Numbered from the stretch's first letter, positions 4,936 through 28,892 are shown. The stretch is 32,192 nt of DNA from a virus (IMGVR_UViG_3300028840_002151:1-32192); one strand, 5' to 3'. Notes: generated by a model not told the origin, from the letters alone. Numbers and translations: made by a program.

Positions 4936-5119
4936 CAAAGGCGGTATAATATCTGCAATCCTGATATGCGGGGTGTTGTTGATAATAGCTGGGACATGGT
5001 TAGGGAATAGCAGTCTTACTTCATTAGGTAACGCGTTCCTGTCTATTCTGTTTTGGCTGTTTGTAATCGTAGTGGCAATTATAATCGTGTCTTTTTTATT
5101 ATTTTTGAAATATGGGTAA
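4925..5119 (+). CDS. Two-pass small membrane protein (64 aa)
   Basis: AAAGGAGGTAACTA precedes tandem ATGs at 4925 and 4928; the product starts MMDNKGG or MDNKGG. Two hydrophobic segments, about 8-24 (IISAILICGVLLIIAG) and 38-61 (AFLSILFWLFVIVVA...), are separated by a short polar turn. The C-terminus is KYG. It resembles small holin- or superinfection-exclusion-type proteins in layout only; no family is recognised. Confidence 0.65.
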   Translation: MMDNKGGIISAILICGVLLIIAGTWLGNSSLTSLGNAFLSILFWLFVIVVAIIIVSFLLFLKYG

Positions 5120-5414
5120 ATGTAAGCGTTGTGGGTTCTGCTGCAAAGTCCAGGTAATGCAGATGAACACGGAGGAGGACTTGGAGGCGTGCAGGCTAAG
5201 AGAAAACTACCTGATGGAGGTCAGACATAAGGGAAAGACCTACGTGGTGATGGAAAGCAAATGCTCATGCCTTTTGCTGCACTATAATAAATTTACTAAC
5301 TATTCATGGTGCACTATATACCCAAGAAGGCCTAAACTGTGTAGAGGAAACCCAAATGATATGAAACTGTGGAAGAAGATTCACCCAGATTGCGGCTTAT
5401 TTGACAATGATTAA
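5112..5414 (+). CDS. Second YkgJ-type cysteine-cluster protein
   Basis: The 100-aa protein starts MGKCKRCGFCCKV, the C-x2-C-G-x-C-C signature at residues 4-11, followed by CSC (51-53), CTIYPRRPKLC (about 67-77) and C95. The C-x-IY-x-x-RP-x-x-C block is the best-known family mark and is clearer here than in the paralogue at 3660. It probably holds a metal or Fe-S cluster; its role in a virus is unknown. It overlaps the upstream membrane gene by 8 nt and is followed by the tRNA. Confidence 0.8.
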   Translation: MGKCKRCGFCCKVQVMQMNTEEDLEACRLRENYLMEVRHKGKTYVVMESKCSCLLLHYNKFTNYSWCTIYPRRPKLCRGNPNDMKLWKKIHPDCGLFDND

Positions 5415-5603: not shown

Positions 5604-6368
5604 ATGAAAAAATCTACTAAACCTAAGGAAGACATGGAAATCATTCCAAGACCTAACTGGTACGAGGGCAGGAGGAAGAACCCTAGGGTGGGCATAGCGG
5701 TAAGCAACATAGGAGCTATGTCCTCGGCATTCGTGAGGAGCATGATGGCAATAATGAGAGATAGCATGTTCAACGGGATTGTAATAGATTTTATACTGGA
5801 CGAGACCAAGCCACTGGACGATTCAAGGAACGTTACAGTTAAGGAGCTGATGGCGTGCGATCCCGACTACATATTCTTTGCTGATGCGGATATGACATTC
5901 CAGCCCCCGACAATACGCTGGCTATTGGAGCAGGGGAAGGACGTCATAACGGCGGTCTACTGTCAGAAGCAGCCGCCCCATTACCCAGTGCTGAGGATGT
6001 TCGACAAAGACGAGGGACACTACCAAGTGGTGAGGAGCTACCCGAAGGGGAAGGTGTTCACTGTCGACTCGTGCGGGGCGGGGGCATTGTTGGTGAAAGC
6101 TAGCGTGTTCAAGAAGCTTAAAAAACCATATTTCAAGTGGGATTACGAAAAGGGGATAAGCGAGGACATATACTTCTGCGAGAAGGTTAAGAAAGCTGGA
6201 TATGAGATATGGGTGGACGGCGGCGTGGAGTGTGGGCACATGGCGGATATGAGGCCGATAGAACCGAAAGACTTTTGGGGCGCTTATCTCAGGAATCTAA
6301 GTCTGACCGACAAGGAAACAATAAAGACATTCGACTTTAAACAGGAGGAACCTAAATTAACCAAATAA
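5604..6368 (+). CDS. GT-A fold glycosyltransferase
   Basis: TAAGGAGGTGAAATA precedes the ATG, an excellent site. The 254-aa protein has a nucleotide-sugar domain: RVGIAVSN at 28-35, the metal-binding DxD motif FFADADM (D94, D96), and GISEDIYFCEKVKKAGY at 184-200, whose ED pair is the usual catalytic-base region of family-2-like enzymes. The final helix ends EEPKLTK. No membrane segment or signal is seen, so it acts in the cytoplasm, perhaps on virion proteins or viral DNA. It differs from the TAGT-type enzyme at 836. Its 3' end carries the ribosome-binding site of the next gene. Confidence 0.85.
   Translation: MKKSTKPKEDMEIIPRPNWYEGRRKNPRVGIAVSNIGAMSSAFVRSMMAIMRDSMFNGIVIDFILDETKPLDDSRNVTVKELMACDPDYIFFADADMTFQPPTIRWLLEQGKDVITAVYCQKQPPHYPVLRMFDKDEGHYQVVRSYPKGKVFTVDSCGAGALLVKASVFKKLKKPYFKWDYEKGISEDIYFCEKVKKAGYEIWVDGGVECGHMADMRPIEPKDFWGAYLRNLSLTDKETIKTFDFKQEEPKLTK
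6343..6348 (+). promoter_or_regulatory. Shine-Dalgarno AGGAGG that fixes an ATT start
   Basis: AGGAGG inside the end of the glycosyltransferase gene is followed seven bases later by ATT at 6356. An in-frame stop (TAA 6353-6355) sits just before that ATT, and no ATG, GTG or TTG follows until near the end of the frame. Confidence 0.65.
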
Positions 6369-10366: not shown

Positions 10367-11407
10367 ATGCCTCTAAAACCAAAGTATGAGAAAATCAAGA
10401 GAGCCATGATATCAAAGTATGGCAAAAAGAAAGGCGAGCAGGTATTTTATGCATGGTGCAATAAAGAAGGGGTAAATCCAGATGTTAAGAGCATATTCGA
10501 CATTGCATCCGAGCCGCTGACATTTTTCACTGATGAGACAGCATTTTCTGAGATTAATACGAAGGGGGACAAGAAATACTACGTTACTGGTTATATCTCA
10601 ACCTCTGATTTAGATTCTGTTAATGATATAGTAACTAAGGAATGTTTGATGGATATGGTTAAGCAGCTAAAGAGCAGGACCATAAAACTTGATATAGAAC
10701 ACGAGGCCTATAGGAAAGACCCGACCATTGTTCCAATAGGGAAGATAACCGAGGCCAAGCTCGACGAGAAGGGGATATGGATTAAAGCAGAGTTGAACAG
10801 GCACAGCTCTAGGTTCAAGGAGGTATGGGGGAGCATACAAGAGAAAATGCTGGACGCGTTTTCGATCACATTTAAGCCCTTGCAACATATTGACAAGGAG
10901 ATAAACGGCATTACGACGCGGATGTTGTATGCCATAAAGTTATTGAACGTCGCGCTGACGGGGAATCCAGCGAATGAGATGGCTACCATGACGGGGGCTT
11001 TTACAAAAAGCTTAGATTTAATCAAGGAGGATAAGAAAATGGCAAACGGAGATGAGGAAGAACAGCCAAAAGAGGGAGAGGAGCAGCCAGATACATCCGA
11101 GGCTAAGAAGTCAGCGGAGGAAGTAGAGGTTGTGGAAAAGAAAGACCTCAAGTCTTTGAGTGAGACTATTGAATCGCTCAAAGAGGAGGTCAACGGGATA
11201 AAAGAGAGTATCGAGAAGCAGACAGAGACCAAGGACGTAAAGGAGAAATTGGAGGCAGATATCAAGGTTTTGACTGATGAACTAGCCGATATCAAGAAAA
11301 AGCTCGCGGAGCCAGTGATAAAGGCCACTGCCCCAGACACGTTCAGGGAGAAGAAGGGAGTCGCAGTGAAAGAAGACGCACAAGGAATGTTAAGCCTTGT
11401 CAGATAA
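10367..11407 (+). CDS. Prohead protease fused to a scaffold-like domain
   Basis: The 346-aa product has three parts. Residues 1-42 are a basic helical segment (KYEKIKRAMISKYGKKKGEQVFYAWC). Residues 70-215 are an HK97-type prohead protease: the catalytic His in LDIEHE (H112), the nucleophile in DAFSITF (S166), and the closing ALTGNPAN motif. Residues 225-346 are an acidic spacer (DEEEQPKEGEEQP) and then a long coiled coil of scaffold type (about 250-318). The protease should trim scaffold and capsid N-termini during maturation. Order protease-scaffold-capsid matches many siphoviruses. Confidence 0.88.
   Translation: MPLKPKYEKIKRAMISKYGKKKGEQVFYAWCNKEGVNPDVKSIFDIASEPLTFFTDETAFSEINTKGDKKYYVTGYISTSDLDSVNDIVTKECLMDMVKQLKSRTIKLDIEHEAYRKDPTIVPIGKITEAKLDEKGIWIKAELNRHSSRFKEVWGSIQEKMLDAFSITFKPLQHIDKEINGITTRMLYAIKLLNVALTGNPANEMATMTGAFTKSLDLIKEDKKMANGDEEEQPKEGEEQPDTSEAKKSAEEVEVVEKKDLKSLSETIESLKEEVNGIKESIEKQTETKDVKEKLEADIKVLTDELADIKKKLAEPVIKATAPDTFREKKGVAVKEDAQGMLSLVR
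11024..11030 (+). promoter_or_regulatory. Internal ribosome-binding site AAGGAGG for a nested scaffold
   Basis: AAGGAGG within the protease coding region is eight bases upstream of ATG 11039, which is in frame with the protease. It is as strong as the site used for the capsid gene (AAGGAGG at 11406-11412). Confidence 0.6.
11039..11407 (+). CDS. Nested scaffold protein (122 aa), in-frame start inside the protease gene
   Basis: This start would yield residues 225-346 of the protease-scaffold protein alone, beginning MANGDEEEQPKEG. The product is acidic with a coiled coil from about residue 25 to 95 (SLSETIESLKEEVNGIKES and following) and a basic C-terminal tail FREKKGVAVK that could bind the capsid protein. 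The layout equals the known lambda C/Nu3 arrangement, where most scaffold is made from an internal start. The strong ribosome-binding site is seen; translation is inferred. Confidence 0.6.
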   Translation: MANGDEEEQPKEGEEQPDTSEAKKSAEEVEVVEKKDLKSLSETIESLKEEVNGIKESIEKQTETKDVKEKLEADIKVLTDELADIKKKLAEPVIKATAPDTFREKKGVAVKEDAQGMLSLVR

Positions 11408-11420
11408 GGAGGAAAAGAAA

Positions 11421-12521
11421 ATGACAACAGATTTCGGAGATGGTGGAGGAGTTAATCCACAGATAGCCTATCATAACAGCTTTGGAGGGTTGGTGAATCA
11501 TGGGCAGTGTTATTCAGACCCCCTGGAAATCAAAACTGGCGATTACAGAGAGGAGCTTGGAAAAAGCTTTTTAGAAATGAGAGGTATTGAGGGGAAAGCC
11601 GTAACTGCCACATCAGGAGGTACTGGAACTGCTGGATATGCAATGATTCCTATTTATGTTGATCCACGGATTGTCGATATCACTAGGAAGTACACACCCC
11701 TGGTTGAGATAATCCCAAGGGTTGCAAACATGGGGACTACGGCGGATTTCAACAGGTTGGAAACAAAGGCAAGTGCAGTATTCGCTGGAGAAGATGCTGC
11801 ATTGAGTGAGCAGACAGATACATATGACAGGAGTTCACACCCCATAAAATATCTATACTCAGTTGGTAAGGTAACTGGACCCTCGCAGGCCGCGTATCCG
11901 TCCTATATTCTCGGTGGGTTTACCCAGTCAGCAGCACCAACAGCTAAGCAATTAGACGTTGTTGTTAAGACCAGGGCGCTGAGGGAATTGGAAGAAAATG
12001 CGATTGTTACGGGTTCGACTGGTACTACATCAACATGGTTTGACGGTTACCAGCAGCAGATTGGGACAACTAATACTGTTGACAAGAACACTGCTGCAGT
12101 ATCCTTGGATGATCTATATACGGCGGTTCAGTACGCGTTTGACGACGCAGGGAGGCCGAATATCGCTCCTTGTGGTTCCAGCGTGTTCACGGATATAGCT
12201 AACCTAATGATAGACCAGTTTAGGTACGGGCCAAAAGACCTGACCGCAGGGAAGTTACCTTGGGGCTATGAGACCATCCAGATTAATACAATGGTCGGGC
12301 AGATACCGATTCTCCCGTCTATGTATGAGAGCAATGTATCTGGGAGTAAGGCAATATATTTCATAGACCTGAATGAAACAGAAATGAGAGTGTTGCAGGA
12401 TGTAACATACGAGGAGTTAGCAAAGACAAACGACTCTGAGAAGTTCATGCTGAAAGTTTACGAGGCTTTGGTGTTGAAAGCTCCAGAGTTTTGTGCATCA
12501 GTTACGGAGATTTCAACTTAA
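11421..12521 (+). CDS. Major capsid protein, HK97 fold
   Basis: The 366-aa protein follows the protease/scaffold gene and a perfect AAGGAGG. An in-frame TTG at 11397 precedes that site and is not used in my reading. Recognisable parts include IPIYVDPRIVDITRKYTPLVEIIPRV (N-arm to E-loop region), an acidic E-loop (AGEDAALSEQTDTYDRS), the spine-helix region TRALRELEENAIVTG, and the P/A-domain strand LPSMYES. The first 50 residues may be removed by the protease. Cysteine is rare (three in all). The size is normal for a T=7 siphovirus capsid. Confidence 0.85.
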   Translation: MTTDFGDGGGVNPQIAYHNSFGGLVNHGQCYSDPLEIKTGDYREELGKSFLEMRGIEGKAVTATSGGTGTAGYAMIPIYVDPRIVDITRKYTPLVEIIPRVANMGTTADFNRLETKASAVFAGEDAALSEQTDTYDRSSHPIKYLYSVGKVTGPSQAAYPSYILGGFTQSAAPTAKQLDVVVKTRALRELEENAIVTGSTGTTSTWFDGYQQQIGTTNTVDKNTAAVSLDDLYTAVQYAFDDAGRPNIAPCGSSVFTDIANLMIDQFRYGPKDLTAGKLPWGYETIQINTMVGQIPILPSMYESNVSGSKAIYFIDLNETEMRVLQDVTYEELAKTNDSEKFMLKVYEALVLKAPEFCASVTEIST

Positions 12522-12557: not shown

Positions 12558-13547
12558 ATGGCAATCACAAGAGGATTGAGGAGGGTTGGAGGCGCAGGGG
12601 CAGCCCCACCATATGCACACGGCCCCTATGCATGGAGCGAACATATAACTTTTTCTAGTGGAGTTAGTGGAGCTAATACACCAGGAAACATCTGGTATGT
12701 TGACGGTGAGAATGGCACAAGCGGTGAAGATGGAAAGAGTTGGAGTAGTGCATTAGACACTATACAGGCAGCTGTAGATTTATCGGGTGATAATACTGCA
12801 GATGTGATATATGTCGCCCCACACAAATATACTGAGAATGTAATTATTGAAAGCCATGAAGGTCTGACAATACAAGCGATTATTCCAGGTTGGACTACGC
12901 GAGTTAGAGCTAGTGATGCAACAACTAAGTATGCTGGAACAGCGCCTTCAGTTAGTGGTTATTGCTTCCTGATATTGGATAGGAATGTCACGGTAGACGG
13001 ATTCTGCTGTGATGCTGACGGCGGATATGGTGGTGTTTACATAGGAGATGGTGGTGAAATTACAGCAACAGGCGGTTTGCCAGCCTCTAACAACAACAAT
13101 TCAGCTAATTCAACTGTTAAGAATTGTCTTATCAGGGCTGGAACGGCTGGTGTTACTTTGCATGGATGTTCCGATAACTGTTTGATAGAGAACAATGTAT
13201 TTTCGGAGCTGAAGGGAGTTGGTGTTGACATCCAAGCTGGGACTAATAGGACGAACCAAAGACCGATAATAACAAACAACACGTTCTTTGCTGGTTCAAG
13301 TTCGACCTATGGAATTGACGAGGATAACTCAGCAACGAATGTAGGGACAGTAGTACACGGTAATGTGTTTGCAGAGCGAGCAGGACAGTGGACACATGCT
13401 ATACGTTTCCAAGCTGCAGGTGTGCATTTCATAAGTGGTAATTATTTCATGTGTGATAATACATGGAGCGCACCAAGTACGAGCTGGATTGCAGGTAACT
13501 TTGGACCTAACGGAGCAGACGGCAGCGAAGTAGTATCGGAGGCTTAA
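12558..13547 (+). CDS. Parallel beta-helix virion protein (329 aa)
   Basis: GDNTADVIYVAPHKYTENV opens a pectate-lyase-like, right-handed beta-helix with repeating coils (NSTVKNCLIRAG, NCLIENNVFSEL, RPIITNNTFFAG, GTVVHGNVFAE), about residues 60-310. The N-terminal 50 residues are Gly/Ala/Pro-rich, like a virion-anchoring tail. Its place directly after the capsid gene suggests a head decoration or fibre rather than a tail spike. No catalytic acidic triad is evident. AAGGAGAT is the ribosome-binding site. Confidence 0.7.
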   Translation: MAITRGLRRVGGAGAAPPYAHGPYAWSEHITFSSGVSGANTPGNIWYVDGENGTSGEDGKSWSSALDTIQAAVDLSGDNTADVIYVAPHKYTENVIIESHEGLTIQAIIPGWTTRVRASDATTKYAGTAPSVSGYCFLILDRNVTVDGFCCDADGGYGGVYIGDGGEITATGGLPASNNNNSANSTVKNCLIRAGTAGVTLHGCSDNCLIENNVFSELKGVGVDIQAGTNRTNQRPIITNNTFFAGSSSTYGIDEDNSATNVGTVVHGNVFAERAGQWTHAIRFQAAGVHFISGNYFMCDNTWSAPSTSWIAGNFGPNGADGSEVVSEA

Positions 13548-16617: not shown

Positions 16618-16791
16618 ATGAAACTAAAAAATATATCGGGTGGGGCGCTCAAGTTCAAGACGCTGGATAATTTCGTGGCTCCAGAGGGCTTATTCGAATG
16701 CCCTGATGAGATTGCTGAACAACTCTTAAACAATGACGCAATTAGAAAAGTAAAACAAAAAATAACAAAGGAGGCAAAAAACAATGGCTGA
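16618..16791 (+). CDS. Small tail-region protein (57 aa)
   Basis: GAGTGAGGAAA precedes ATG 16618; a GTG at 16609 is less likely. The product MKLKNISGGALKFKTLDNFVAPEGLFECPDEIAEQLLNN has a short beta unit and then a helix, with a Lys-rich end. The opening is similar to that of the 90-aa protein at 14067, suggesting two copies of one fold. Its 3' end holds AAAGGAGG for the tail tube gene, overlap 8 nt. Confidence 0.6.
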   Translation: MKLKNISGGALKFKTLDNFVAPEGLFECPDEIAEQLLNNDAIRKVKQKITKEAKNNG

Positions 16792-17737
16792 AACATATAG
16801 TGGGGTATTGGCGTATGTAGCGTGGGGAGAAGAAAGCACCTACGGTACGGCAGCAACGACAATAGACCAGTGGGAATTAATGAGAAATGTAAATGCAAGG
16901 CTTGGGCATAATTCCATACCAGTGAAGGGTCTGGGTGCCAGATATACGCAGGCAATAAAGCCAGGACCTACAGATGGAGCTTTCTCCGCTGAAATGGTCC
17001 TACAGGATATGAGGATGCTCACGGCAATAGGGGGAATGGCTGATACGAAGACGGGCAGTGGCGACATCACGCACACCATAGTCCCCGCGACCACCATAGA
17101 TTCTGGAACAATAGAGCTAGGCCACAACGGAACTGCGGATGTAATTTATAAGTTGACTGGACTCATGATAAACTCATGGACTCTGAATCTAACGTTAAAT
17201 GATGTTGCGACAGTTAGTTTAGATTGCATATACCAGGAAATCGACGACTCAGACACGACAGCTCAAACACCATCATTCAAGACTACTGATCCATTTGCTT
17301 TGGCAGAGATACAGGCGAAAGTCGGGGATTCGGCAGTGGCAGAAGTACAGAGCGGTAGTCTAACTTACAATAATAACTTGGTCCCGATAAGGGGTCTGGG
17401 GAGCGCGGATCTGACGGACATAATGCCTGGGCCGTTGGATGTGACCTGGAGCATGAACCTGAACATGAGAGACATAACGTTTCACGAGTATATAGAGGAC
17501 AACACAGAGATAGACTTCGAGTTCGTATTGACGGAGTCCGCAACCAGAAACATAACGTTCACCATGAATAACTCCGTCATAGACGGCTGGAGCGAACCAG
17601 CGGATGTCGGAGGCGGAGTTGTTAACGTGACAATTGACGGAATAGCGAGATATGACAGTGCCGAAGGAGTAGCGGCGAACAAGAATATAATCCAGATAAT
17701 AGAGGATAACGCGATAGACGTGGACTATGACGCTTAA
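16784..17737 (+). CDS. Major tail tube protein
   Basis: The 317-aa protein starts MAETYSGVLAYVAWGEESTYGTAA, the usual opening of siphovirus tube proteins. It contains two similar halves: SIPVKGLGARYTQAIKPGPTDGAFSAEMVLQDMRML in the first and VPIRGLGSADLTDIMPGPLDVTWSMNLNMRD in the second. This internal duplication is seen in some tail tube proteins. Strong AAAGGAGG upstream predicts high expression, as needed for the main tail component. An NVTI sequon occurs near the C-terminus. Confidence 0.85.
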   Translation: MAETYSGVLAYVAWGEESTYGTAATTIDQWELMRNVNARLGHNSIPVKGLGARYTQAIKPGPTDGAFSAEMVLQDMRMLTAIGGMADTKTGSGDITHTIVPATTIDSGTIELGHNGTADVIYKLTGLMINSWTLNLTLNDVATVSLDCIYQEIDDSDTTAQTPSFKTTDPFALAEIQAKVGDSAVAEVQSGSLTYNNNLVPIRGLGSADLTDIMPGPLDVTWSMNLNMRDITFHEYIEDNTEIDFEFVLTESATRNITFTMNNSVIDGWSEPADVGGGVVNVTIDGIARYDSAEGVAANKNIIQIIEDNAIDVDYDA

Positions 17738-18247: not shown

Positions 18248-18459
18248 TAAGACTGCTCAGAAATCGCATGTATGCGGAGAAATACGGTTGGACGTTTCGG
18301 GAGACCGAAGGACACTATGTCAGCGACCTCAGGGCGCTGGAGATACTGGAGTTTGAGGAATCCCGATTGAACAAGAACAAAGGAGATGGCGGGAGCGTCG
18401 ACTTGACGAGAAAGCTCCCGAGAAGCATAAAGAGAGGATTGAAACATGGCAGAGGCTGA
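18196..18459 (+). CDS. T-like extension of the tail chaperone (-1 frame)
   Basis: In the -1 frame from ATT 18196 the sequence reads IIRAVASGYKDIRDPEIVRLLRNRMYAEKYGWTF..., helical and charged, to the stop at 18459. Joined to the first 95 codons it gives a fusion of about 182 aa, whose extra 87 residues would contact the tape measure. An ATG at 18268 exists but has no ribosome-binding site, so separate translation is unlikely. The stretch 18196-18267 has no start and is coding-like, which supports fusion. Confidence 0.72.
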   Translation: MIRAVASGYKDIRDPEIVRLLRNRMYAEKYGWTFRETEGHYVSDLRALEILEFEESRLNKNKGDGGSVDLTRKLPRSIKRGLKHGRG

Positions 18460-19747
18460 GTTTCCAGTAAAGCTGAAGTTTATTGTGGACAATGCAGGAG
18501 TCCAGCAGATTTCGAAGGCAATAGGCGGCGGCTTCATGGACGGAATGCGCGGTGGCATATTGGGCGGAGGAGGCGGCTCCGGGATGATAGGCGGTCTTGG
18601 CGGCCTGTTCGGGAAGGCTGGCGTATTCGGACTGATGGTAAAGGGGCTGGACCAGCTGAACACTACGGTTACCAATATGTTCAAGTACTCCCCGGCCATG
18701 ACACAGAGCCTCAAGGCGCTTGAGACCTCGTTCTTCTTGATAATGAAGCCGATAGGGGACTTCATAGGCGCAATCCTGAGGCCCGTCGCGATATGGCTAT
18801 TGGACTGGATTGTCAAGAACAGGGAGCTCGCGACACTTATAGGAGCTGTTATACTTGGACTGGCGGCGATTAAGACAGTATTACTCGGTAAAGGGCTTGT
18901 TGAAACTATAACTGGCGGCGGCGGTGCTGCCGTTGGTGCAGCTACTGGAGTAGGTACTGGTGCAGCTGCCGGGGCGGGTCTATTAGGACTGGGTGCCGCA
19001 GCCGCGGGTGGTGCTGCTACAGGATTAGGTATTTTATATCTACTAAGGGAAGCTGCAAAGGGAGAATATACTGGGAGAAGAGGGGAAAACATACAATATC
19101 AAAGAAGGCCTCTCAGTTTTGGAGGGACTTTTGGACCCGAGGCTGACATTTATGGCTCATGGCCAGATATTTATAGATGGATGCAAGACCAAGGGTTTTC
19201 TGGGGGGTACACTTCGTCAGGTATGGGACGTCCGTATATGAGCGAAATAGAAGAAATGCAGAAATTTGCCAAAGAGATAAATGTGGAACTTCACGCTCAT
19301 AGAGACACCCTGAGAGAAACAGATTTGAACTTGAACAAATATGCTAAATATTTAGAAGATTCTAATAAGTCTGCAGAAGAAATTGCTTTGGGATTGCAAA
19401 GTTCAAGAAAACACGCACTTGAATATATAGGCGGTGGCGGAAAATTGCCCATAGGAGTTGGAATTGGGATGGGCTTAGAATTAGAAGAAATACCTAAGAC
19501 CGTAGAAGCTATAAATAAGATGGAAAATGAGGTTGATAATACTACCTTTACAATTACTGAATATGCTGGTTCATTACGCAACTTAATAGATGCAACTGGG
19601 AAGTGTATACTCTCATTTAACGACTTATCGGAAGCCCAGTCAAAAGGCTTATTCACAGTCGGGAGAAGTCCCGCCAAAGGCGGCTATGGCGGAGAGAAAC
19701 CGCAGAATTGGAGAGTTAGGACTGGAAAGACAAATCCTTACACTTAA
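18446..19747 (+). CDS. Tape measure protein (short)
   Basis: The 433-aa product starts MAEAEFPVKLKFIVDNAGVQQISKAI, a typical tape measure opening. It has two Gly-rich stretches (about 27-58 and 153-195), amphipathic helices, and hydrophobic segments (IGDFIGAILRPVAIWLLDW at 110-128, LATLIGAVILGLAAI at 132-146). The second half is charged and helical. Using the usual 1.5 A per residue, it predicts a tail of about 65 nm. It overlaps the chaperone by 14 nt. Bases after about 19020 are visibly more AT-rich, as if the C-terminal half had another origin. Confidence 0.75.
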   Translation: MAEAEFPVKLKFIVDNAGVQQISKAIGGGFMDGMRGGILGGGGGSGMIGGLGGLFGKAGVFGLMVKGLDQLNTTVTNMFKYSPAMTQSLKALETSFFLIMKPIGDFIGAILRPVAIWLLDWIVKNRELATLIGAVILGLAAIKTVLLGKGLVETITGGGGAAVGAATGVGTGAAAGAGLLGLGAAAAGGAATGLGILYLLREAAKGEYTGRRGENIQYQRRPLSFGGTFGPEADIYGSWPDIYRWMQDQGFSGGYTSSGMGRPYMSEIEEMQKFAKEINVELHAHRDTLRETDLNLNKYAKYLEDSNKSAEEIALGLQSSRKHALEYIGGGGKLPIGVGIGMGLELEEIPKTVEAINKMENEVDNTTFTITEYAGSLRNLIDATGKCILSFNDLSEAQSKGLFTVGRSPAKGGYGGEKPQNWRVRTGKTNPYT

Positions 19748-19749
19748 AA

Positions 19750-20133
19750 ATGACATACTCACTAGGTTCGGTTACATTCGCAGACGGGGAAGTCATAGAA
19801 GTTAGGAGCAATTTGAAGGCTGGTATAACCACTATCCCTATGCCCTTCAAGGAGAGCACCGACACGCTTGTGTACAACTACGAGGGGGTAACCAGGGAGG
19901 TGATGATACGGGGTCAGTTATGGGGCGCTTCGGACGCGGCTATGGCGGCGAGGGCGAACACGATAGAGGCGCTTCTGACCGCTGAACAAAGTTCCGTAAA
20001 GCTCATATGGCCGCTGAAAACCAGCGGGATATACGTCAAAATCATAGACATAACGTTCGACACCAGGAAAGACCCGGCTCCGTCGAGCTATACCGAGTTC
20101 ATGATAAACTGCGTAGAGTCTTCGCAGGACTGA
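19750..20133 (+). CDS. Probable distal tail / tail-tip component (127 aa)
   Basis: The product MTYSLGSVTFADGEVIEVRSNLKAG is beta-rich with RGQLWGASDAAMAARANTIEALLT helix and WPLKTSGIYVKIIDITFD strands. It lies between the tape measure and the adhesin/hub genes, where the distal tail protein belongs. I see no residue-level signature that separates a distal tail protein from a baseplate ring protein, so the role is given by position. Confidence 0.6.
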   Translation: MTYSLGSVTFADGEVIEVRSNLKAGITTIPMPFKESTDTLVYNYEGVTREVMIRGQLWGASDAAMAARANTIEALLTAEQSSVKLIWPLKTSGIYVKIIDITFDTRKDPAPSSYTEFMINCVESSQD

Positions 20134-20134
20134 A

Positions 20135-23100
20135 ATGGTTGAGATAAAAGAAAGAAGGACGAAAATCGCAGCTGGAAGCGGAGGATTGGTAATAATATTA
20201 ATAATCTTGTTTTTTCTCTCAGACCAGCCAGGTATCATATATGGTGTTAAGTTCTATTTCCCAGTTTACGCCACGTGCGACGTATTAAACTGCTTTATAG
20301 AGGGCAACATTTCGCATAATTTCACCAAAAGCATCTGCTTCTCGAAGGACAGGCTAAGCGGGGAGTTTCCAGAAATAGCGCGGCAGATTAACTTTAGGTA
20401 TCTGGGAAACGTATCTTTAGAGACTTATGTTTACGGGGTAATTGAGCGTAACTATACGTGTCAATATAGCGCTACTTGGGACGCAAACAATACGTGGTGT
20501 TGGTATCTGGACATAAACGGAAGCAATATCACAGTTTTTTCCGTGTCGAATTGGACCCACGGAAACGCACAGACAAAGACAGTCTACTGGGACGAGTACG
20601 GGATAATCGGAACTAAGCAGCTAACAGTTAAAGACTGGAAATCCGTCCCACAGGAGATTTGCCTTAAACCGAATGTTAATTACACTGTTAGGATAGATTT
20701 CGAAAAGCCCCCCTGGTCTATGGGGAAATTCAATATATCCGTAAGACTTCCAAACAATATGAGCGCCACTAGATTCGGACTGGACCCATGGTGGTCGGAC
20801 GACTATTCCAAAAGAGTTGAGATACGTTTGGAAAACTTAGATAACGTAGACCACTCTGAGGAATTGATAGAAATAGATTACGGGGATCTTTTTACATCTA
20901 GTTTATATAGCAAAATAGAGTTTAGGATGGTTAACGAAACTGGCACCGACCAGGTAACCGTGAACGTGAGTATTCTGGGCAACCACATAGGCGACAGTTA
21001 TCAGACAACTGCAAATTCTTTGACTTCATGGTATGCCGATAACGGAGGTTTTTATCAGTCGTTCAGGGCGAACAGGAGCAATATATCGGCGATAGCCATA
21101 AACCTAGCGCGGGACGGAACGGGAGATGTTTCGGGTTGGAGGACCCTAGAAATCCAGTCTTCTTGTGGGGGGATAGTATTGTGCAATACTTCTATAAAGA
21201 ACCATAACAACGAGACTAATATATCGACTTCGAATGGCTGGGTGAATACCACTATCGTCTGCAACGAGTTAACCCCACTTGATACCTATTTTATATATTT
21301 CAAATGTAGCGGATGCGCTGGAAACAGCAATAATGATTTACAGGTCCATGGCGCGGTTAACACACCTAATTCTTATCCTTTAGGTCAGTTTCTTGATACT
21401 GGTTGCGGGGGCTCTAACCATGACGTTGCCTTTAAAATCTATTATGATAATGATACGACCTTTAGAGCGAATGAGAAATTGGCTTTCACTCTTGATGACA
21501 ATATAATAAACGGGGACGGGAATGAGAGAACCTTGGAGTTATATTATAACAACAACGGCGCTTCAGACTTAAATTATACTTTAGATACGTCAAACCCATA
21601 TTATGATACGGATAGCAATTATACAGTCGGCTCGGAAGAGAGTGCAGCGGCGGGCGCTGGCCTCACATGGGTCTGGAACATCACCAAGAACAGTACGTCT
21701 AACACTCATATGTCTATCAATGTTTCCGTAAAGGCTGACGCGGCTATAATAGCATGTAACGTTGATATCGATGGAACTAACTATACGATGTCAAAGGATA
21801 ATAGTACGGGATTTGACTATACGTGGACAGTTCTCGCAGACGGTAACTATACTCTTAGAGCTTATTGTAATGATACGTCCAATATTACAACCATGACTAC
21901 GATAGCATGGTATAAGTATGATACCACCTCTCCAGTTGTTTCATGGGCCTCTTGGACTGGTCATAATATTACCACCACGGTTAAGGATACCACAATTAGA
22001 ACGACCGCCGATGAAACTGTAAACTGCACATTACACTTTAACGGAACCGATTATTCTAATGCCACCTCGGCTCTTTCTCATTCGTGGAGAATAACCAATG
22101 CGAATCAGGGGAACCATAGTAGTATAAATGTTACTTGTGATGACTTAGCCAATAATAAAGGATATTCTACTAGCGCATGGTGGAATGTAAGCTATCAGGA
22201 ATGCGAGATACTAAATACTTCTGGACAATACTATCTAAGACGAGGGAATATATCAAATCATGGCAGCTCGTGTTTCAATATATCTGCTGACAACGTAACC
22301 TTGGATTGCGCTGGCTATACGATAGACGGAACCAGCCCCGGCTCTGGTACTGCTTCTGGGATCAATATTACTGGAGCCACCAATGTGACGATAGCGAACT
22401 GCACGGTAACGGAGTTCAGATACGGCGTTTACGCCAGGGGGATGTTCAACTCTACCGTCAAGAACAATACCGTCTACGACCATACGCATAGCGGGTTTTA
22501 CTGGGATTCTGACGATTATAATTCCCTGCACAACAACACCGTTAACGGAACTACCTATGCGATGTATCTGACGTCATCCATAGGGAACAAACTCGACAAC
22601 AGTAGCTTTTCCACTGTTAGCGGAAATGCCATGTATGTAACAGGGAGCTCCGCCGATAACCAGTTTAAGAACAGCACGTTTTATTCTAATACGGAAGATG
22701 TGTTTTATTATGGAAGTGGTGCTTATAGCAATACCATAAAAAATTGTTCTTTTAATGGGGGGGATGGAACTACAGATTATATGATAGACATCTATGGAGA
22801 TAGTTTGACTGTTGATAATATAATTGTGGAAACTACATCTGCTTGTGGATTGAATTTAGATGGTTCAGAAAATGTTGTCGTGGCAAATAGTACAATAACG
22901 TCTAAGAGGTGGGGACTGCGTATACGTGCAGCAACCTTTCAGAATACAATAAAAAACAATACCATCTCTGCTACTACTACATCTTCTCAGTCGATGGTAG
23001 TTATTGGCGACCATAATAGTATCTACAACAACACTATCCTCTCTTCGAATGATGGTGTTCTCATATCATTTGACACGGGTAACCACAACAACTTCACAAA

Positions 23101-24568
23101 CAATACTGTGTTTGTGGATGATATAGCAATAAAAGTAGCGGGGGGTGCTAGAGATAATATATTTAAAAATAATTCTATTACAAGTGATACTCTTGACTTT
23201 GGTATATGGGTAACAGATGGAGCCCATGACAACAACTTCACAAACAATACAATAACGAAAGCAGCTAAAGGAATTTATCTGAATATAGTAAATTCTGGGT
23301 ATCCCGATTTAAAAGACAATTGGTTTATAAATAATACGATAGTAGGTACTACAATGTGGGGCGTGGATACTAGAGATTCTACTGGAGTCTGTGGACCTAA
23401 CTATTTTCTTAATACTACTTATGACAAAGAATATGTAAGTTCTGGTTGCGAGCTTGTCAGGATGTGGTATGTTACGGTCAATGTAACTAACGGCTCTACC
23501 CAGCTAAACGCAAATTACACTTTCTACAACAACTCCCAGGAGTTGGCCTACAACGGCACCACGGGGGCTGACGGTCTGGCGACCGAGAAAGTGATAGAAT
23601 ACAAGAACATCTCCGGCACGACCTACTGGCATACGAATTACACTGTAAACATAACCAAGAACGGGTTCGATACGGCGAACACCAGCCAGAACATAACGAC
23701 GAACAGGCGGTTGAACTTCACGCTGACTGATATAGAGTGCAGCGTAATCGTGGCGATAAGCTGGAACATATACGGAGCCGTCACCACTTTATTTTATCCA
23801 GCGTCCAACACATCTCAGAATGTCAGCGCTCTTGGACAAATAGACCTAAACAATTCCGATCAGGTTACGTCAACTATGGTAGTGTATAGCAACCATACCA
23901 CAAACAGTTCTGGAGGAGCTTCAAACGCCACCGATGGGGACTTGACGACCGCGTGGTATTCTGCATCCGATTACCCCCTAAGGGCGTATTGGCAGGTGGA
24001 TTTGGGAGAGAACATGACGAACATCTCCACAATGAAATGGTACTTCATAAAGGGCGATAATGCTTCCAGATACTTTAACATCTCATATTCGCTTGACAAC
24101 CTGACATGGACGAATCCGAGTTGGGGATGGTTCCTATATGGGACTAACGGCAGTTGGAATTCAATATCGCCGACAGATGATATAACGGCTCGTTATATAC
24201 GGCTACTATTTGTAAATGAATATACAAATGTGAGTAATACTACAGCTGGAGAAACCGACGTTGTAAGTTCGTTTTTAGGCGGACTTGCAGAATTTGAGGT
24301 CTATCTTGATGGTAAGGGAATCTTCAATATCACATCGGACGAGGATGCAAACATAACGGTCAGGATAAACGAAACACATTCAAACATTACTTTCAAGATT
24401 TCCAAGGATTTCAACGTCAGCCATAGCAAGGTTATGACAACGTCTTACCAGGAAATTTTAAACATAACTACCCCGAACACGTATTACCAGCTTTGGGCTT
24501 GGGCTAACCTAAGCGGGGACATAGCGGATTACAGTTATCTTTGGGACTTTTATTGTATTCCAGTATGA
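20135..24568 (+). CDS. Giant sequon-rich surface glycoprotein / adhesin, 1477 aa
   Basis: Domains in order: a short basic N-terminus, then a membrane segment GLVIILIILFFLSD (about 17-30); cysteine- and sequon-rich beta domains (35-210, with 11 N-x-S/T sites); a region starting DPWWSDDYSKRVEIRL (about 217); Ig-like domains with DGNYTLRAYCND (about 565); a NosD-type parallel beta-helix (about 690-1090; NNTV/NNTI coils); a PEGA-like beta domain (about 1110-1200); and a discoidin (F5/8 type C)-like domain (about 1225-1390, ATDGDLTTAWYS... YWQVDLGE), which usually binds sugars. Sequons run throughout, implying N-glycosylation outside the cell. Placed between tail tip and hub genes, it probably recognises the host. 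Bases about 22690-23450 are markedly AT-rich. Confidence 0.8.
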   Translation: MVEIKERRTKIAAGSGGLVIILIILFFLSDQPGIIYGVKFYFPVYATCDVLNCFIEGNISHNFTKSICFSKDRLSGEFPEIARQINFRYLGNVSLETYVYGVIERNYTCQYSATWDANNTWCWYLDINGSNITVFSVSNWTHGNAQTKTVYWDEYGIIGTKQLTVKDWKSVPQEICLKPNVNYTVRIDFEKPPWSMGKFNISVRLPNNMSATRFGLDPWWSDDYSKRVEIRLENLDNVDHSEELIEIDYGDLFTSSLYSKIEFRMVNETGTDQVTVNVSILGNHIGDSYQTTANSLTSWYADNGGFYQSFRANRSNISAIAINLARDGTGDVSGWRTLEIQSSCGGIVLCNTSIKNHNNETNISTSNGWVNTTIVCNELTPLDTYFIYFKCSGCAGNSNNDLQVHGAVNTPNSYPLGQFLDTGCGGSNHDVAFKIYYDNDTTFRANEKLAFTLDDNIINGDGNERTLELYYNNNGASDLNYTLDTSNPYYDTDSNYTVGSEESAAAGAGLTWVWNITKNSTSNTHMSINVSVKADAAIIACNVDIDGTNYTMSKDNSTGFDYTWTVLADGNYTLRAYCNDTSNITTMTTIAWYKYDTTSPVVSWASWTGHNITTTVKDTTIRTTADETVNCTLHFNGTDYSNATSALSHSWRITNANQGNHSSINVTCDDLANNKGYSTSAWWNVSYQECEILNTSGQYYLRRGNISNHGSSCFNISADNVTLDCAGYTIDGTSPGSGTASGINITGATNVTIANCTVTEFRYGVYARGMFNSTVKNNTVYDHTHSGFYWDSDDYNSLHNNTVNGTTYAMYLTSSIGNKLDNSSFSTVSGNAMYVTGSSADNQFKNSTFYSNTEDVFYYGSGAYSNTIKNCSFNGGDGTTDYMIDIYGDSLTVDNIIVETTSACGLNLDGSENVVVANSTITSKRWGLRIRAATFQNTIKNNTISATTTSSQSMVVIGDHNSIYNNTILSSNDGVLISFDTGNHNNFTNNTVFVDDIAIKVAGGARDNIFKNNSITSDTLDFGIWVTDGAHDNNFTNNTITKAAKGIYLNIVNSGYPDLKDNWFINNTIVGTTMWGVDTRDSTGVCGPNYFLNTTYDKEYVSSGCELVRMWYVTVNVTNGSTQLNANYTFYNNSQELAYNGTTGADGLATEKVIEYKNISGTTYWHTNYTVNITKNGFDTANTSQNITTNRRLNFTLTDIECSVIVAISWNIYGAVTTLFYPASNTSQNVSALGQIDLNNSDQVTSTMVVYSNHTTNSSGGASNATDGDLTTAWYSASDYPLRAYWQVDLGENMTNISTMKWYFIKGDNASRYFNISYSLDNLTWTNPSWGWFLYGTNGSWNSISPTDDITARYIRLLFVNEYTNVSNTTAGETDVVSSFLGGLAEFEVYLDGKGIFNITSDEDANITVRINETHSNITFKISKDFNVSHSKVMTTSYQEILNITTPNTYYQLWAWANLSGDIADYSYLWDFYCIPV
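23085..23250 (+). repeat. 22-bp direct repeat within the beta-helix
   Basis: The 22 bases starting ACAACAACTTCACAAAC at 23085-23106 recur at 23229-23250, exactly 144 bp (48 codons, about two coils) apart. They encode (H/D)NNFTNNT, so this is a recent duplication of beta-helix coils. Confidence 0.7.
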
Positions 24569-26136
24569 CGACGATAGGAGGGACGGTCTACGCGCCGCCG
24601 ACGGAAACTGGAAGATTGAGGTCGAGAGTAGTCTACAAGTTGGTCGACGGGGACGACTACGTGGACATCTCAGATTACGTCTACCGTTGGGTGACTGTGG
24701 AGGATATAGAGAAACCGATAAGTACGGCGAAAATCAACTTGTCCCCCGTGTTTATAACCGACGATTTAGACGATACGATTATCGACGGGACAGAGATACG
24801 GATATATGTCGGCGACTCAGTACCGAGCGAGCTTTGGTTCGCCGGGATAAAGACCGACCTGGAGCAAGACGGGGTCACGGGGGTAATGCACTGTGTGAAT
24901 ACGGGGATTGAACTGGAGAGGAGGGAGGTTACGCAGGATTTCATCTACCACAAAGACCCTGTATACTCCGGCAGGCTGGTTGAGATAGCCAAGTACATGA
25001 TAGACAATTACACCACACTTGACAGCCAGGGGATAGAATATACTTCAACCAAACTATCGGACAAGATAATATGCGATCACGAACCAATCATAGACGTGCT
25101 CAAGAAAATAAAGGAAACCCTGCAGTGGGAGCATTACGTCAGGAACGGGGTGTATTACCTGCATTCCTCGAACTATATAGACAACAGCGTTACTTTAACA
25201 GTAGGAACCGACCTTGTTGCTTTCGGGGACTGGAGCAGGGATAATAGCAACCTTGTCAACAAGCTTACAGTTTACGGGGCGAGTGAGAGCCATTCTACCC
25301 AACAGCTTTTCAGCGGCGACGGCACGGAGAACCAGGAGTTCGAACTCACGTACCCGTATTTCAGTAATGTGAAGGTCGAGATTGACGTAGCCGGGACGTG
25401 GACGGAAAAGACAGGCGCAATCCCAGGCTCCACTACCGGGACATACGATTACACGATGCACCCAGATTCCAGCCAGAAGCTTATTAGGTTCGACGGAACG
25501 ACCGGGTATAACCCCCCAGCGGCCGCGGATAATGTTAGGGTTACATATACCCATGCTTGGCAAGTTCCGTATACCGCACAGGACGACATAAGCATTGAAA
25601 AGTACGACAAATACGAGAAAACTATGTATAGACCAGATTTAAAAACCAAGGATGACGTCGTCGAGTTCACCAAGAAGTACCTGACGAATTATAGTTCCCC
25701 CTTCAAGATAGGGACTGTGGTGTGCAAAAGGAGCAATTTAAGAGTGGGGGAGCGTGTAACTATTGTTGACAGCAGGAACAACGTCAACGAGGCGTTTACG
25801 ATAACTAGGATGGAAATGGCGTGGCCGGAGTATCTCTGCACCCTGGATGTCGGAAGCCAACCGAGAAACCTTGGGGACTGGAGGCGCGGGCTTAACGAGA
25901 GGGTCAGGAGATTAGAAGAGGAAAACCGCGGATACGCGTCCGCTTCTAGATACGAATGGTTACATAAACCTGAGGTAACTATAAACACCTCGATTTCTTA
26001 TTTTAAGTTGGAAACGTCAGTTAAGGGCTCGAACTTTTTGCTTGGATCCAGCGGAACCGACATACTCGGTAGTTCCGGGACGGGAACCCCGCTCGGAGAT
26101 ACTACAAAAACTACTGTTATAGAGGAGACATTTTAA
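24565..26136 (+). CDS. Tail hub / Tal-type protein (gp27-like)
   Basis: ATG 24565 overlaps the adhesin stop as ATGA; an upstream TTG is unlikely. The 523-aa protein begins with hub-type beta domains (RVVYKLVDGDDYVDISDYVYRWVTVEDIEKPISTAKI), includes IIDGTEIRIYVGD and a helical DHEPIIDVLKKIKETLQWEHYVRNGVYYLH piece, and continues with NSNLVNKLTVYG (a mark of the tail-hub family). A coiled-coil helix (RRGLNERVRRLEEENRG, about 440-456) and a short Gly/Ser/Thr-rich tail follow. It would form the trimer at the tail tip. No lysin domain is seen at its C-terminus. Confidence 0.75.
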   Translation: MTTIGGTVYAPPTETGRLRSRVVYKLVDGDDYVDISDYVYRWVTVEDIEKPISTAKINLSPVFITDDLDDTIIDGTEIRIYVGDSVPSELWFAGIKTDLEQDGVTGVMHCVNTGIELERREVTQDFIYHKDPVYSGRLVEIAKYMIDNYTTLDSQGIEYTSTKLSDKIICDHEPIIDVLKKIKETLQWEHYVRNGVYYLHSSNYIDNSVTLTVGTDLVAFGDWSRDNSNLVNKLTVYGASESHSTQQLFSGDGTENQEFELTYPYFSNVKVEIDVAGTWTEKTGAIPGSTTGTYDYTMHPDSSQKLIRFDGTTGYNPPAAADNVRVTYTHAWQVPYTAQDDISIEKYDKYEKTMYRPDLKTKDDVVEFTKKYLTNYSSPFKIGTVVCKRSNLRVGERVTIVDSRNNVNEAFTITRMEMAWPEYLCTLDVGSQPRNLGDWRRGLNERVRRLEEENRGYASASRYEWLHKPEVTINTSISYFKLETSVKGSNFLLGSSGTDILGSSGTGTPLGDTTKTTVIEETF

Positions 26137-26137
26137 A

Positions 26138-26515
26138 ATGACAACCACAGCTATGATAACGACGGCAGGTCAGGACCAGATACAGACGGACTTCTTACAA
26201 CTGCTTGCAGACGCCATCCAATTCGGGGAGCTTGGAACCGGGACGACCGCCGCGACTGCTTCGGACACCGCCGTAGAGTCTTCAGTATCTGGGTCGAACA
26301 GGAGATGGGACAGCTTTGAGGTTGGTTCCGACTACGTCGAATTCGTCTATACCGCTGGGTTCGACGAGTTTGACGGAAACGATATAAGCGAGATAGTAGG
26401 GAAGGATTCGGAAGGAACCGTGTTCTTCAGGATAACATTCACGGCTCAATCCAAGACGACAACGAATGAGTTTATATTTACGATAAGAATTCCGATAACA
26501 TTCACGCAAAACTAG
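26138..26515 (+). CDS. Tail fibre-type protein (125 aa)
   Basis: The product starts MTTTAMITTAGQDQIQTDFLQLLADAIQFGELGTGTTAATASDTAVESSV, very like the N-terminal attachment segment of many short tail fibres, then beta strands (DYVEFVYTAGFDEF, FFRITFTAQSKTTTNEFIFTIRI). It follows the hub by one base and precedes the three fibre-like genes. It is probably the piece that joins fibres to the tail tip. Confidence 0.6.
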   Translation: MTTTAMITTAGQDQIQTDFLQLLADAIQFGELGTGTTAATASDTAVESSVSGSNRRWDSFEVGSDYVEFVYTAGFDEFDGNDISEIVGKDSEGTVFFRITFTAQSKTTTNEFIFTIRIPITFTQN

Positions 26516-26611
26516 ATGGAAAAAGAAAGATTTAAGGGAAAACTTCGAATTGGAAAACCAGAACTGAGCATTTCGACAAGGACAAGAAATGACGCATCCG
26601 AGCAAGATTGA
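26516..26611 (+). CDS. Hypothetical 31-aa basic peptide
   Basis: The ATG follows the previous stop directly and the frame ends 23 nt inside the next gene. The peptide MEKERFKGKLRIGKPELSISTRTRN is basic. No ribosome-binding site is visible. It fills an otherwise empty 73-nt gap, which is the only real support; it may not be translated. Confidence 0.35.
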   Translation: MEKERFKGKLRIGKPELSISTRTRNDASEQD

Positions 26612-27185
26612 CGGGGATACGGTGACCCATACGGAATGGAACAACCAGGCGGAGGAGTTCAGGGTAAAGGTTACCAGATTTCAGAGAGCCGGGCCATTAA
26701 CCTTTGCCAGTTCGGGCTGGGATAAGCAGATTGTTGGAACGTTAAATCCAGAAGGCAGTTACAGCGCCGTGTTGGGGATATATGCTACTTTTGAAGTTGA
26801 TGCGGGATATACTTCCGGCGGAATAGATAATGAAAACCTTATTAGATTCATAATTACAAATATTAATAATTCAGGACATGCAAGCGGAAATCAAAGTGTC
26901 GTTACTAGATATGTCAGAGAACACGAGGATTCAGGCGAAAACTGGATAAGCAAGACAATCTACTCCACGTTCAACGACGGGGATCAGGATTATGAAACGG
27001 ATAACACTGAACCTAGACAATGCTATTTTCCATGCGGAGCTACGGAATATACGATATATATACAGGCATGTAGTATTAATGAGGATAATGGGGGATTCAG
27101 TGGGAAGAGTCCGAAAATCCGAAATATTGACGCTTACGTCTACTGGCTTGACAACTGCTATCTGATAACGGAGGGAATACCATGA
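26589..27185 (+). CDS. Fibre-like protein A (198 aa), first of three tandem relatives
   Basis: The product begins MTHPSKIDGDTVTHTEWNNQ, a DGD-x-hydroxy-E start used by many viral fibre proteins, and ends with strand KIRNIDAYVYWLDNCYLI. Between are beta strands (GSYSAVLGIYATFEVDAG). The layout matches the next two genes: polar start, Y-x-I/V-L-G strand in the middle, I/V-x-V-Y-x-Y-x-D strand at the end. Probably tail or head fibre. A sequon NNS occurs at about residue 93. Confidence 0.6.
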   Translation: MTHPSKIDGDTVTHTEWNNQAEEFRVKVTRFQRAGPLTFASSGWDKQIVGTLNPEGSYSAVLGIYATFEVDAGYTSGGIDNENLIRFIITNINNSGHASGNQSVVTRYVREHEDSGENWISKTIYSTFNDGDQDYETDNTEPRQCYFPCGATEYTIYIQACSINEDNGGFSGKSPKIRNIDAYVYWLDNCYLITEGIP

Positions 27186-27760
27186 CTGTCGGAAGGATAA
27201 GACAAAAGCACGATACCAATTATCCATTAACTGGAGATGACTGGACTGAGAACGGGAATTTGCTTAGGTGCTATGTTAGAAGATTCAGTGATAATAATGA
27301 ACATAAATTTGGGTGTTCTACGGCATATGAAGACTGGGACGCCACAAACTGGGAGCTAATCACACGGTGGGACTGGAACTTTAAGACGGACGACACGACA
27401 TATAATATTATTTTGGGTATGAGATTCGAATGTGAGATGAAGAAGGACGGGGACAATCAGCCTTATGCACGTATACTATTGACAAATACTGGAGAGGACA
27501 GCTCTTACGATTACCAATCCAACAACAAGACCTTTGAATTAATGAGCGACAGTCTCACGAACTCTGGGACGAGTTACGCAGAGAGGGTAGTAACTTGGAA
27601 TATGTGGGATAGAGTTGACAGAGCCACAGCAAGACAGTACCAGCCAGGGGAGCAGGAGAGATATAAGTTTGATATTGTAGCGACTGGAAACGGTTGGATA
27701 AAAAATATGACAGTTGATGTTTACTACTTCGATAGGGGATATATGTTTACAAGTTATTAA
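27182..27760 (+). CDS. Fibre-like protein B (192 aa), second tandem relative
   Basis: GGAGGGAATACC lies before the ATG, which overlaps the previous stop. The product starts MTVGRIRQKHDTNYPLTGDDWTEN, has TTYNIILGMRFECEM in the middle and ends MTVDVYYFDRGYMF. Trp, Asp and Tyr are common (WELITRWDWNFKTDD), as in glycan-binding surfaces. Same overall plan as its neighbours but sequence has diverged strongly. Confidence 0.6.
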   Translation: MTVGRIRQKHDTNYPLTGDDWTENGNLLRCYVRRFSDNNEHKFGCSTAYEDWDATNWELITRWDWNFKTDDTTYNIILGMRFECEMKKDGDNQPYARILLTNTGEDSSYDYQSNNKTFELMSDSLTNSGTSYAERVVTWNMWDRVDRATARQYQPGEQERYKFDIVATGNGWIKNMTVDVYYFDRGYMFTSY

Positions 27761-27761
27761 T

Positions 27762-28259
27762 ATGACATTTCACACGAAATCGGACGGGGACAATCTGAGC
27801 GATACGGAGTATATGGAGAGCTTAGATGAGGACTGTAGGATTTGGGTGCAGAAGTATACTAGAGCTGGCGAGAGCAGCGGAGATGGAAAGCAAGACGATA
27901 TAGGGACTCTCACGGTACAGTCGGGCAGTAACTATGCCATTATTTTAGGTGTTGTATTGAAGACGGACATACACAGCGGCGAAGCGTTTGTCCGCATAAA
28001 AGGGACTGGTGGTAGTTCCTTTGATGTTTGTAACTTAGTTAATAATGAGGGTAACTACAAGACAATGCGATCTGTGCCATGGATGCCTGCAACTCTCTGC
28101 GAGACCAAGAGGACTGGGAGTGGAGATATAGATACTAGGGAGGACGCTCTACTCCATTACGCGTCCTATGACATAGACGTTTACCATAATGGCGCTGGGA
28201 CTCATACTCAAAATGTAGAGGTTTATATTTATCACTTGGACAATGGAACACTACAATAA
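27762..28259 (+). CDS. Fibre-like protein C (165 aa), third tandem relative
   Basis: ATG 27762 directly follows the previous stop, and I prefer it to an internal start within gene B at 27714. The product starts MTFHTKSDGDNLSDTEYMES, includes GSNYAIILGVVLKTDI and ends VEVYIYHLDNGTLQ, giving clear similarity to the A and B products at start, middle strand and end. Probably another fibre or receptor-binding subunit. Confidence 0.6.
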   Translation: MTFHTKSDGDNLSDTEYMESLDEDCRIWVQKYTRAGESSGDGKQDDIGTLTVQSGSNYAIILGVVLKTDIHSGEAFVRIKGTGGSSFDVCNLVNNEGNYKTMRSVPWMPATLCETKRTGSGDIDTREDALLHYASYDIDVYHNGAGTHTQNVEVYIYHLDNGTLQ

Positions 28260-28271
28260 GGAGGAAAGACG

Positions 28272-28892
28272 ATGAAAATGACGTATGTCTTGGTGGGGTT
28301 ACTCGCCATGGGGCTCTTTTGGAGCGCCCACGGTTGCTGTAGCCCGACACCGATAAGTGGAAAAATACTAAGCGACTGCGACAGCAAGCCACTGGAAAAC
28401 GTGAAAGTGAAATTGGAATCCGATACTTCAACGACCAATAAGTACGGGTGGTTTTTCCTTACCGCCCACGGAAACGGGTATAAATGGATTACAGCCACAC
28501 TGGAAGGATACAAGAAGTACAGGACGAAGATAGATGTGAAATGCGGCCTGCCGGTATTCATGTACATTAGGATGGAACCAAATTATGGTTGCGAACCTGA
28601 GTATTGGTGTGGGGATGAGATATGCGATGAGACTGAGAACTGCTCTACGTGTCCTCAAGACTGCGGGGAGTGCGAAGAGCCAGAACCAGAGCCAAAACCG
28701 AAAACCACAAAAAAGAGCACACATGGTCACTGCGACCACTGTTTTTTTGTCGGTGGATTGGCTAGGTATTATCAAAACCTTCAGTTCGGCTGGTGGTACA
28801 AATATGCGGAAGACTGCGGAATAGAGTATGACCGCAAGATACCACCGCAGAATTTAAGGCATTTATGTAATCTAAAGGAGGCTATGAAATGA
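28272..28892 (+). CDS. Secreted Cys-rich protein with carboxypeptidase-regulatory-like domain
   Basis: AAGGAGG before the ATG supports the start. Residues 1-22 form a signal peptide (MKMTYVLVGLLAMGLFWSAHG) ending at CC, a possible lipidation or cleavage site. Residues 27-100 are a CarboxypepD_reg-like beta domain (ISGKILSDCDSKPLENVKVKLES... TNKYGWFFL). The segment CGDEICDETENCSTCPQDCG (113-132) is a Cys motif common in archaeal surface proteins, followed by an EPEPEPKPK linker and a His/Cys-rich C-terminal domain (HGHCDHCFF). It would act outside the cell or on the virion. Confidence 0.7.
   Translation: MKMTYVLVGLLAMGLFWSAHGCCSPTPISGKILSDCDSKPLENVKVKLESDTSTTNKYGWFFLTAHGNGYKWITATLEGYKKYRTKIDVKCGLPVFMYIRMEPNYGCEPEYWCGDEICDETENCSTCPQDCGECEEPEPEPKPKTTKKSTHGHCDHCFFVGGLARYYQNLQFGWWYKYAEDCGIEYDRKIPPQNLRHLCNLKEAMK

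Follow-up and report, generated by a model that had tools for sequence, protein, structure and literature searches.

A virus record of 32,192 bases from IMG/VR (IMGVR_UViG_3300028840_002151), the whole of which is called the window below, encodes among its tail genes a giant protein, P0001 (1477 residues, 20135..24568, + strand), which by its predicted features is a virus-encoded surface protein with the architecture of an archaeal cell-surface glycoprotein. We favour, with moderate confidence, the reading that P0001 acts mainly at the surface of the infected cell, as a Sec-exported, N-glycosylated and membrane-anchored adhesin. A role in the virion, for which a known halovirus offers a precedent, is weighed against it.

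P0001 is a single open reading frame (ORF) with 93 N-glycosylation sequons. Close to its start there is a putative signal-anchor or membrane segment (residues ~16-30, 20180..20224, +), with a Kyte-Doolittle value of 2.7 over 15 residues, which comes after the stretch KERRTK, a positive-inside arrangement that places the N-terminus inside. Shuffled sequences have a mean of 35.4 sequons (standard deviation 4.9, maximum 55), the excess in P0001 corresponding to z ~12, and the reversed motif [ST]xN occurs 30 times. Since NNT-type repeats could confound the counting, the beta-helix region described below was left out of a second count, which gave 70 sequons compared to 23.5 ± 4.2 expected. The other predicted proteins of the window each have 0-2 sequons per 100 residues. 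P0001 hence combines two marks of exported archaeal surface glycoproteins, namely a positive-inside N-terminal segment, as judged from hydropathy, and sequons beyond what composition gives.

The remainder of the protein can be divided into several regions, all on the + strand. The N-terminal ectodomain (residues 31-215, 20225..20779) contains 11 of the sequons and has weak local similarity to the corresponding protein of a related contig, G099. It is followed by a DUF2341-like region starting with LDPWW (residues 216-515, 20780..21679); the pattern LDPWW..Y.K is common to the G099 protein, which matches DUF2341 (PF10102) in Pfam, whereas P0001 does not. AlphaFold gave no usable model for residues 1-520 (predicted local distance difference test score, pLDDT, 30). 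An Ig-like (Big_7-like) stretch at residues 519-576 (21689..21862) is matched under the Pfam cut-off (E=0.00095). The right-handed beta-helix/NosD region covers approximately residues 691-1090 (22205..23404), and matches both Beta_helix PF13229 (E=1.3e-43, 148.8 bits versus a cut-off of 25.9, best stretch 741-877) and NosD PF05048 (E=1.4e-12, 47.9 bits versus 23.6). Next, a carboxypeptidase-regulatory-like repeat (residues 1109-1197, 23459..23725) is 32% identical to a giant exported protein of another relative, L173, which itself has CarboxypepD_reg matches under the cut-off. The last region is an F5/8C (discoidin, CBM32-like) domain at residues 1256-1365 (23900..24229). It was not matched when full-length P0001 was scanned with Pfam; the C-terminal piece scanned alone matches F5_F8_type_C PF00754 (E=6.6e-12, 46.1 bits versus 28.2) and also the CBM32 structure 5zu6 in the PDB (E=1.3e-4). 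Direct searches of phages, viral contigs and archaeal genomes returned no full-length relative of P0001, and there is no PHROG match, hence no sequence tie to a known fibre family. No description of the protein family was found in literature searches.

The virion-gene module of the window has the order TerL, portal, protease, major capsid protein (MCP), tail completion, tail tube, tape measure, Dit-like, giant ORF, hub. On the left of P0001 is a Dit-like baseplate protein of 127 residues (19750..20133, +), assigned by its fold. The AlphaFold model (pLDDT 76) has a tail-tube/Dit-type fold, and Foldseek matches it to baseplate proteins of several phages (E ~2e-5) and to SPP1 Dit (2x8k, template modelling score 0.64); a profile search of the PDB with the Dit family gave chance matches only. 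On the right is the baseplate hub (24565..26136, +), for which the family profile without halovirus sequences matches the HFTV1 baseplate hub (9h4p) with E=3.3e-8, and with E=3.2e-13 after HRTV-28 and more relatives were added. As BLASTP of the window tail proteins against HRTV-28 gave nothing significant, homology of the hub and the Dit-like protein is shown by profile and fold. The order tube, chaperone, tape measure, Dit, hub is that of HRTV-28.

The Dit stop and the giant-gene start are one base apart, and the end of the giant gene and the beginning of the hub gene share an ATGA; the latter two frames are probably translationally coupled. The fourfold-site composition of the giant gene is near that of its neighbours, and recent foreign insertion is on this account disfavoured. 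The original prediction, made from the sequence by itself, had given the coordinates and length of the ORF exactly. Its membrane segment near the start, its 11 early sequons with many more after, its NosD-type beta-helix, its discoidin-like sugar-binding domain and its placing between tail tip and hub genes are all confirmed by the hydropathy, counts, profiles above curated cut-offs and fold match given here.

Because the direct searches gave no full-length relative, related viruses were reached through an alignment of TerL and then of the MCP, which yielded ~75 related viral contigs. The slot is taken here as the position bounded on one side by the gene that follows the tape measure and on the other by the hub. 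G106 has the tape measure, then Dit (profile 3e-23), an ORF of 1227 residues with 76 sequons, and the hub (6e-117), the membrane segment of the slot protein being weak (1.9). In G109, the tape measure is followed by ORFs of 181 and 548 residues, the latter with 42 sequons, and then the hub (4e-60), and in G100 by an ORF of 180 residues, two ORFs of 806 and 1054 residues with 38 and 60 sequons, and the hub (2.6e-22). The G099 contig stops inside a slot ORF of 982 residues with 52 sequons. A profile recognises the Dit-like gene in the window and in G106 alone; in G109, G100 and G099 it is assigned from its position. In 11 other relatives the slot is empty, with Dit directly abutting the hub (by profile), and G098, whose hub is ~29% identical to that of the window (E=9e-23), likewise has no insert. 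On the MCP tree, where the position of the window is moderately supported (93), the two slot states require at least 2 changes (shuffled mean 4.6). One further contig, L019, at first seemed closely related; its MCP sits on a very long branch, and it was left out.

Features common to the slot proteins are an anchor, an ectodomain and a WW motif; three of them (G106, G100b from G100, and G099) also have a recognised DUF2341 domain. Their N-terminal halves are related, as shown by similarities of weak to moderate strength that link them in a chain: window to G099 over residues 109-269, LDPWW included (E=8e-4, a single comparison), G099 to G100b (1e-13), G099 to G106 (5e-5) and G100b to G106 (1e-4). 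The arrangement recurs across independent contigs, which rules out a chimeric contig. The idea of an archaeal surface protein captured by this virus holds as regards its surface-glycoprotein build and fails as regards an isolated event, as the same kind of protein fills the slot in at least 3 other complete loci. The proposed comparison of the locus in relatives thus did not bear out a one-off capture, and in many relatives exported giants are also encoded at other positions among the virion genes.

The relation between sequons and export was surveyed in 448 ORFs of the clade with at least 250 residues, using hydropathy-based calls; the sequences are related and thus not independent. A sequon z>3 is found for 25 of 34 ORFs with an N-terminal hydrophobic segment, compared to 3 of 412 without one (Fisher p ~3e-30), and the ratio of forward to reverse motif is 1173:536 in the former and 1520:1459 in the latter. 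Sequon excess tracks export across the clade. A control is provided by a beta-helix protein of the virion module that has no export signal (12558..13547, +, PF13229 E=1.2e-6), whose family has 42 sequons versus 58 expected and is if anything depleted. No exported sequon-dense ORF was found among 303 ORFs from other TerL-related phage loci, nor in nine cultured tailed viruses of archaea over the parts that were scanned, which for HRTV-28, HCTV-2 and phiCh1 exclude the ends and for HGTV-1 and HVTV-1 are the first 50 kb, a stretch that in HVTV-1 may miss the tail module.

The other exported giants of the clade have LamG, MAM, beta-helix or Ig-like domains and lie elsewhere in the virion module. 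Cleavable-looking signal peptides are seen inside the virion module of L157, L175, L177, L206, L212 and L213, several together with tail-fibre-like GDGSxLTN repeats. After the capsid gene, L141 (9180-10424) and L197 (7245-8852) encode sequon-dense proteins with lipobox-like starts (IFGCIGQ and IAGCLGQ, respectively), which may be lipid-anchored representatives of this exported kind.

We now consider how such a protein could be used. Tails of tailed viruses assemble in the cytoplasm, and archaeal N-glycosylation occurs outside. A tail assembled in the cytoplasm would have no contact with the ectodomain until lysis, and a protein of the infected-cell surface is therefore favoured. Sec export followed by N-glycosylation at the outer face fits the predicted segment and the sequon counts. 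P0001 would be expressed late, along with the tail genes; Sec would insert it such that the N-terminus stays inside, and the oligosaccharyltransferase of the host (AglB type) would N-glycosylate it. It would remain anchored, such that a lectin-like, sugar-coated adhesin would coat the infected cell. The likeliest use of P0001 would be to bind or mask envelope glycans or the S-layer, such that virions of the same virus, newly made or released, do not re-adsorb. With its gene adjacent to that of the hub, the mask would stay in step with the attachment apparatus. Provided that P0001 does act at the surface, we give receptor masking an even chance, the main alternative being that it changes how infected cells adhere or aggregate. 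Display at the surface of the infected cell, one of the two options in the original prediction, is the one that best fits the export and sequon statistics; a receptor-binding role in the virion is less likely.

The masking idea comes from the analogy with Llp of phage T5, a superinfection exclusion lipoprotein that blocks the receptor (PMC9586334). In both cases a virus protein would go to the envelope of the infected cell and block the receptor of its own virus. Llp is, however, a small bacterial lipoprotein that acts in the periplasm and has no homology to P0001, for which export is a prediction and the blocking role a guess.

Several points weigh against action at the cell surface. Arrival of P0001 at the surface and its glycans are predictions from sequence, and the membrane segments, in P0001 as in the clade, were called from hydropathy alone. 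Masking, as just said, is conjectural. A profile of the clade MCP, run with no positive control, found no match in 544 archaeal genomes of four phyla. Furthermore, the giant gene sits among virion genes, and the strongest point is that the HFTV1 gene in the corresponding slot encodes a tail fibre of the virion. This gene, gp42, lies between the Dit-like connector gp41 and the hub gp44, and the fibre has a beta-helix (PMC12494034).

Because HFTV1 carries its fibre gene in this slot, we also considered that P0001 is a receptor-binding fibre or baseplate decoration of the virion, which would be exported first, glycosylated at the surface, and joined to the hub after lysis or cleavage of the anchor. 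This we regard as possible, although doubtful. The two viruses agree in the gene slot and the beta-helix, and their hub families are detectably related; receptor-binding proteins commonly have CBM32 and beta-helix domains, and some giants of the clade resemble fibres, having GDGSxLTN-type repeats after a signal-like N-terminus. On the other hand, gp42, which has been seen in the virion, has 443 residues, lacks an N-terminal hydrophobic segment and shows no excess of sequons (6 versus 4.4 expected). The exported ectodomain would be away from the cytoplasm, where tails assemble, the 11 relatives with adjacent Dit and hub have no slot gene at all, and the short proteins 3' of the hub (26138-28259) are better placed as fibres.

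As gp42 is neither exported nor rich in sequons, either the slot has been reused or this clade makes its fibre via the cell surface. In the latter case, the receptor-binding part of the tail would be built outside the cell, the slot protein being exported, N-glycosylated and joined to the hub on or after lysis, to give a virion assembled in the cytoplasm with fibres of host-type N-glycoprotein. We consider this unlikely. It stays in play because virion proteins of HRTV-DL1, possibly including the host-attachment protein, are faintly glycostained (PMC10384203), which also speaks for a virion fibre in general. The HRTV-DL1 protein, ORF24, is like P0001 a sequon-bearing and possibly glycosylated protein, here the attachment protein of a tailed archaeal virus; it has nine sequons compared to 93, and the likeness is by description.

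As another option, P0001 could be cargo (a moron) that came from a cell and has no role tied to the tail, sitting where the late operon tolerates insertion. Its domains are typical of archaeal cell-surface proteins, and the genome of archaeon S141 (G009) has 2300-residue proteins with matching beta-helix parts. One of these, a 2311-residue ORF (L054), belongs to the archaeal NosD/beta-helix surface proteins and shares with P0001 the N-terminal hydrophobic segment, dense sequons and beta-helix repeats; the similarity is local only, no discoidin domain or common architecture was found, and P0001 differs in lying in a virion-gene operon. The positions of the relatives' other exported giants in the virion cluster and the two changes of slot state on the MCP tree would also agree with cargo. 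However, four or five viruses have the slot occupied by proteins whose N-terminal parts are related, the one-base spacing and the ATGA overlap couple the gene to its neighbours, and its fourfold-site composition is close to theirs. We find a cargo gene quite improbable. Finally, an ordinary cytoplasmic tail fibre with a coincidental hydrophobic start and sequons would suit the Dit-like/hub flanks and the domain types, and is strongly disfavoured by the size of the sequon excess and its tight link to N-terminal hydrophobic segments throughout the clade.

Concerning the host, TerL of the window (2165-3502) has 45% identity to a contig in an archaeal metagenome-assembled genome (MAG) and HGTV-1 as its best cultured match, while the portal, which has a gpF domain (6785-9115), is best matched by HRTV-28. 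These matches to archaeal viruses and the MAG make an archaeal host likely. With the core proteins TerL, portal and hub all closest to archaeal tailed viruses, the window virus is probably a tailed virus of archaea.

The remaining features of the window can be summarized as follows. The MCP is at 11397-12521, and the beta-helix protein adjoining the capsid gene (12558-13547), probably a head decoration or other virion protein, is conserved in the clade (window, G098, G099, L208, L213 and others) with a common N-terminal PPYxxGPYxW-like motif. The tail tube protein (16784..17737, +) matches PF18906 (E=4e-27), and the tape measure protein (18446..19747, +) was assigned from its Gly/Ala-rich composition, hydrophobic core, gene order and an iterative profile that also finds the copies of the relatives. 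After the hub there are three tandem ORFs of ~190 residues (26589-28259), candidate fibre or receptor-binding proteins, of which the first is a paralogue of the third (E=5e-8). They are followed by a short protein (28272-28892) with a signal-like N-terminus, a carboxypeptidase-regulatory-like domain (under the cut-off) and a CGDEICDETENCSTCPQDCG stretch rich in Cys; it may be a second exported protein. Between TerL and portal, two CxxCxxCC proteins, putatively zinc- or iron-chelating, are encoded at 3660-3971 and 5112-5414. A weak Anp1-like (glycosyltransferase-type) Pfam match under the cut-off at 5604-6368 makes a virus-coded sugar-transfer enzyme possible. The left end (1-1741) has 29-33% G+C and a third-position value (GC3) of ~0.15, as opposed to ~45% and 0.5 elsewhere; this mosaic or early region codes for a ParB-N-like protein and a TET-associated glycosyltransferase (PF20691, E=9e-52).

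The occurrence of the same kind of protein in the slot of related viruses suggests that these viruses either redecorate the infected cell or have grown sugar-coated attachment proteins. A baseplate operon that codes for exported, sequon-packed giants would accordingly either show repainting of infected cells or explain N-glycans on tailed virions, a question raised by the glycostained virions of HRTV-DL1, and the clade allows loci that have the slot gene to be compared to loci that lack it.

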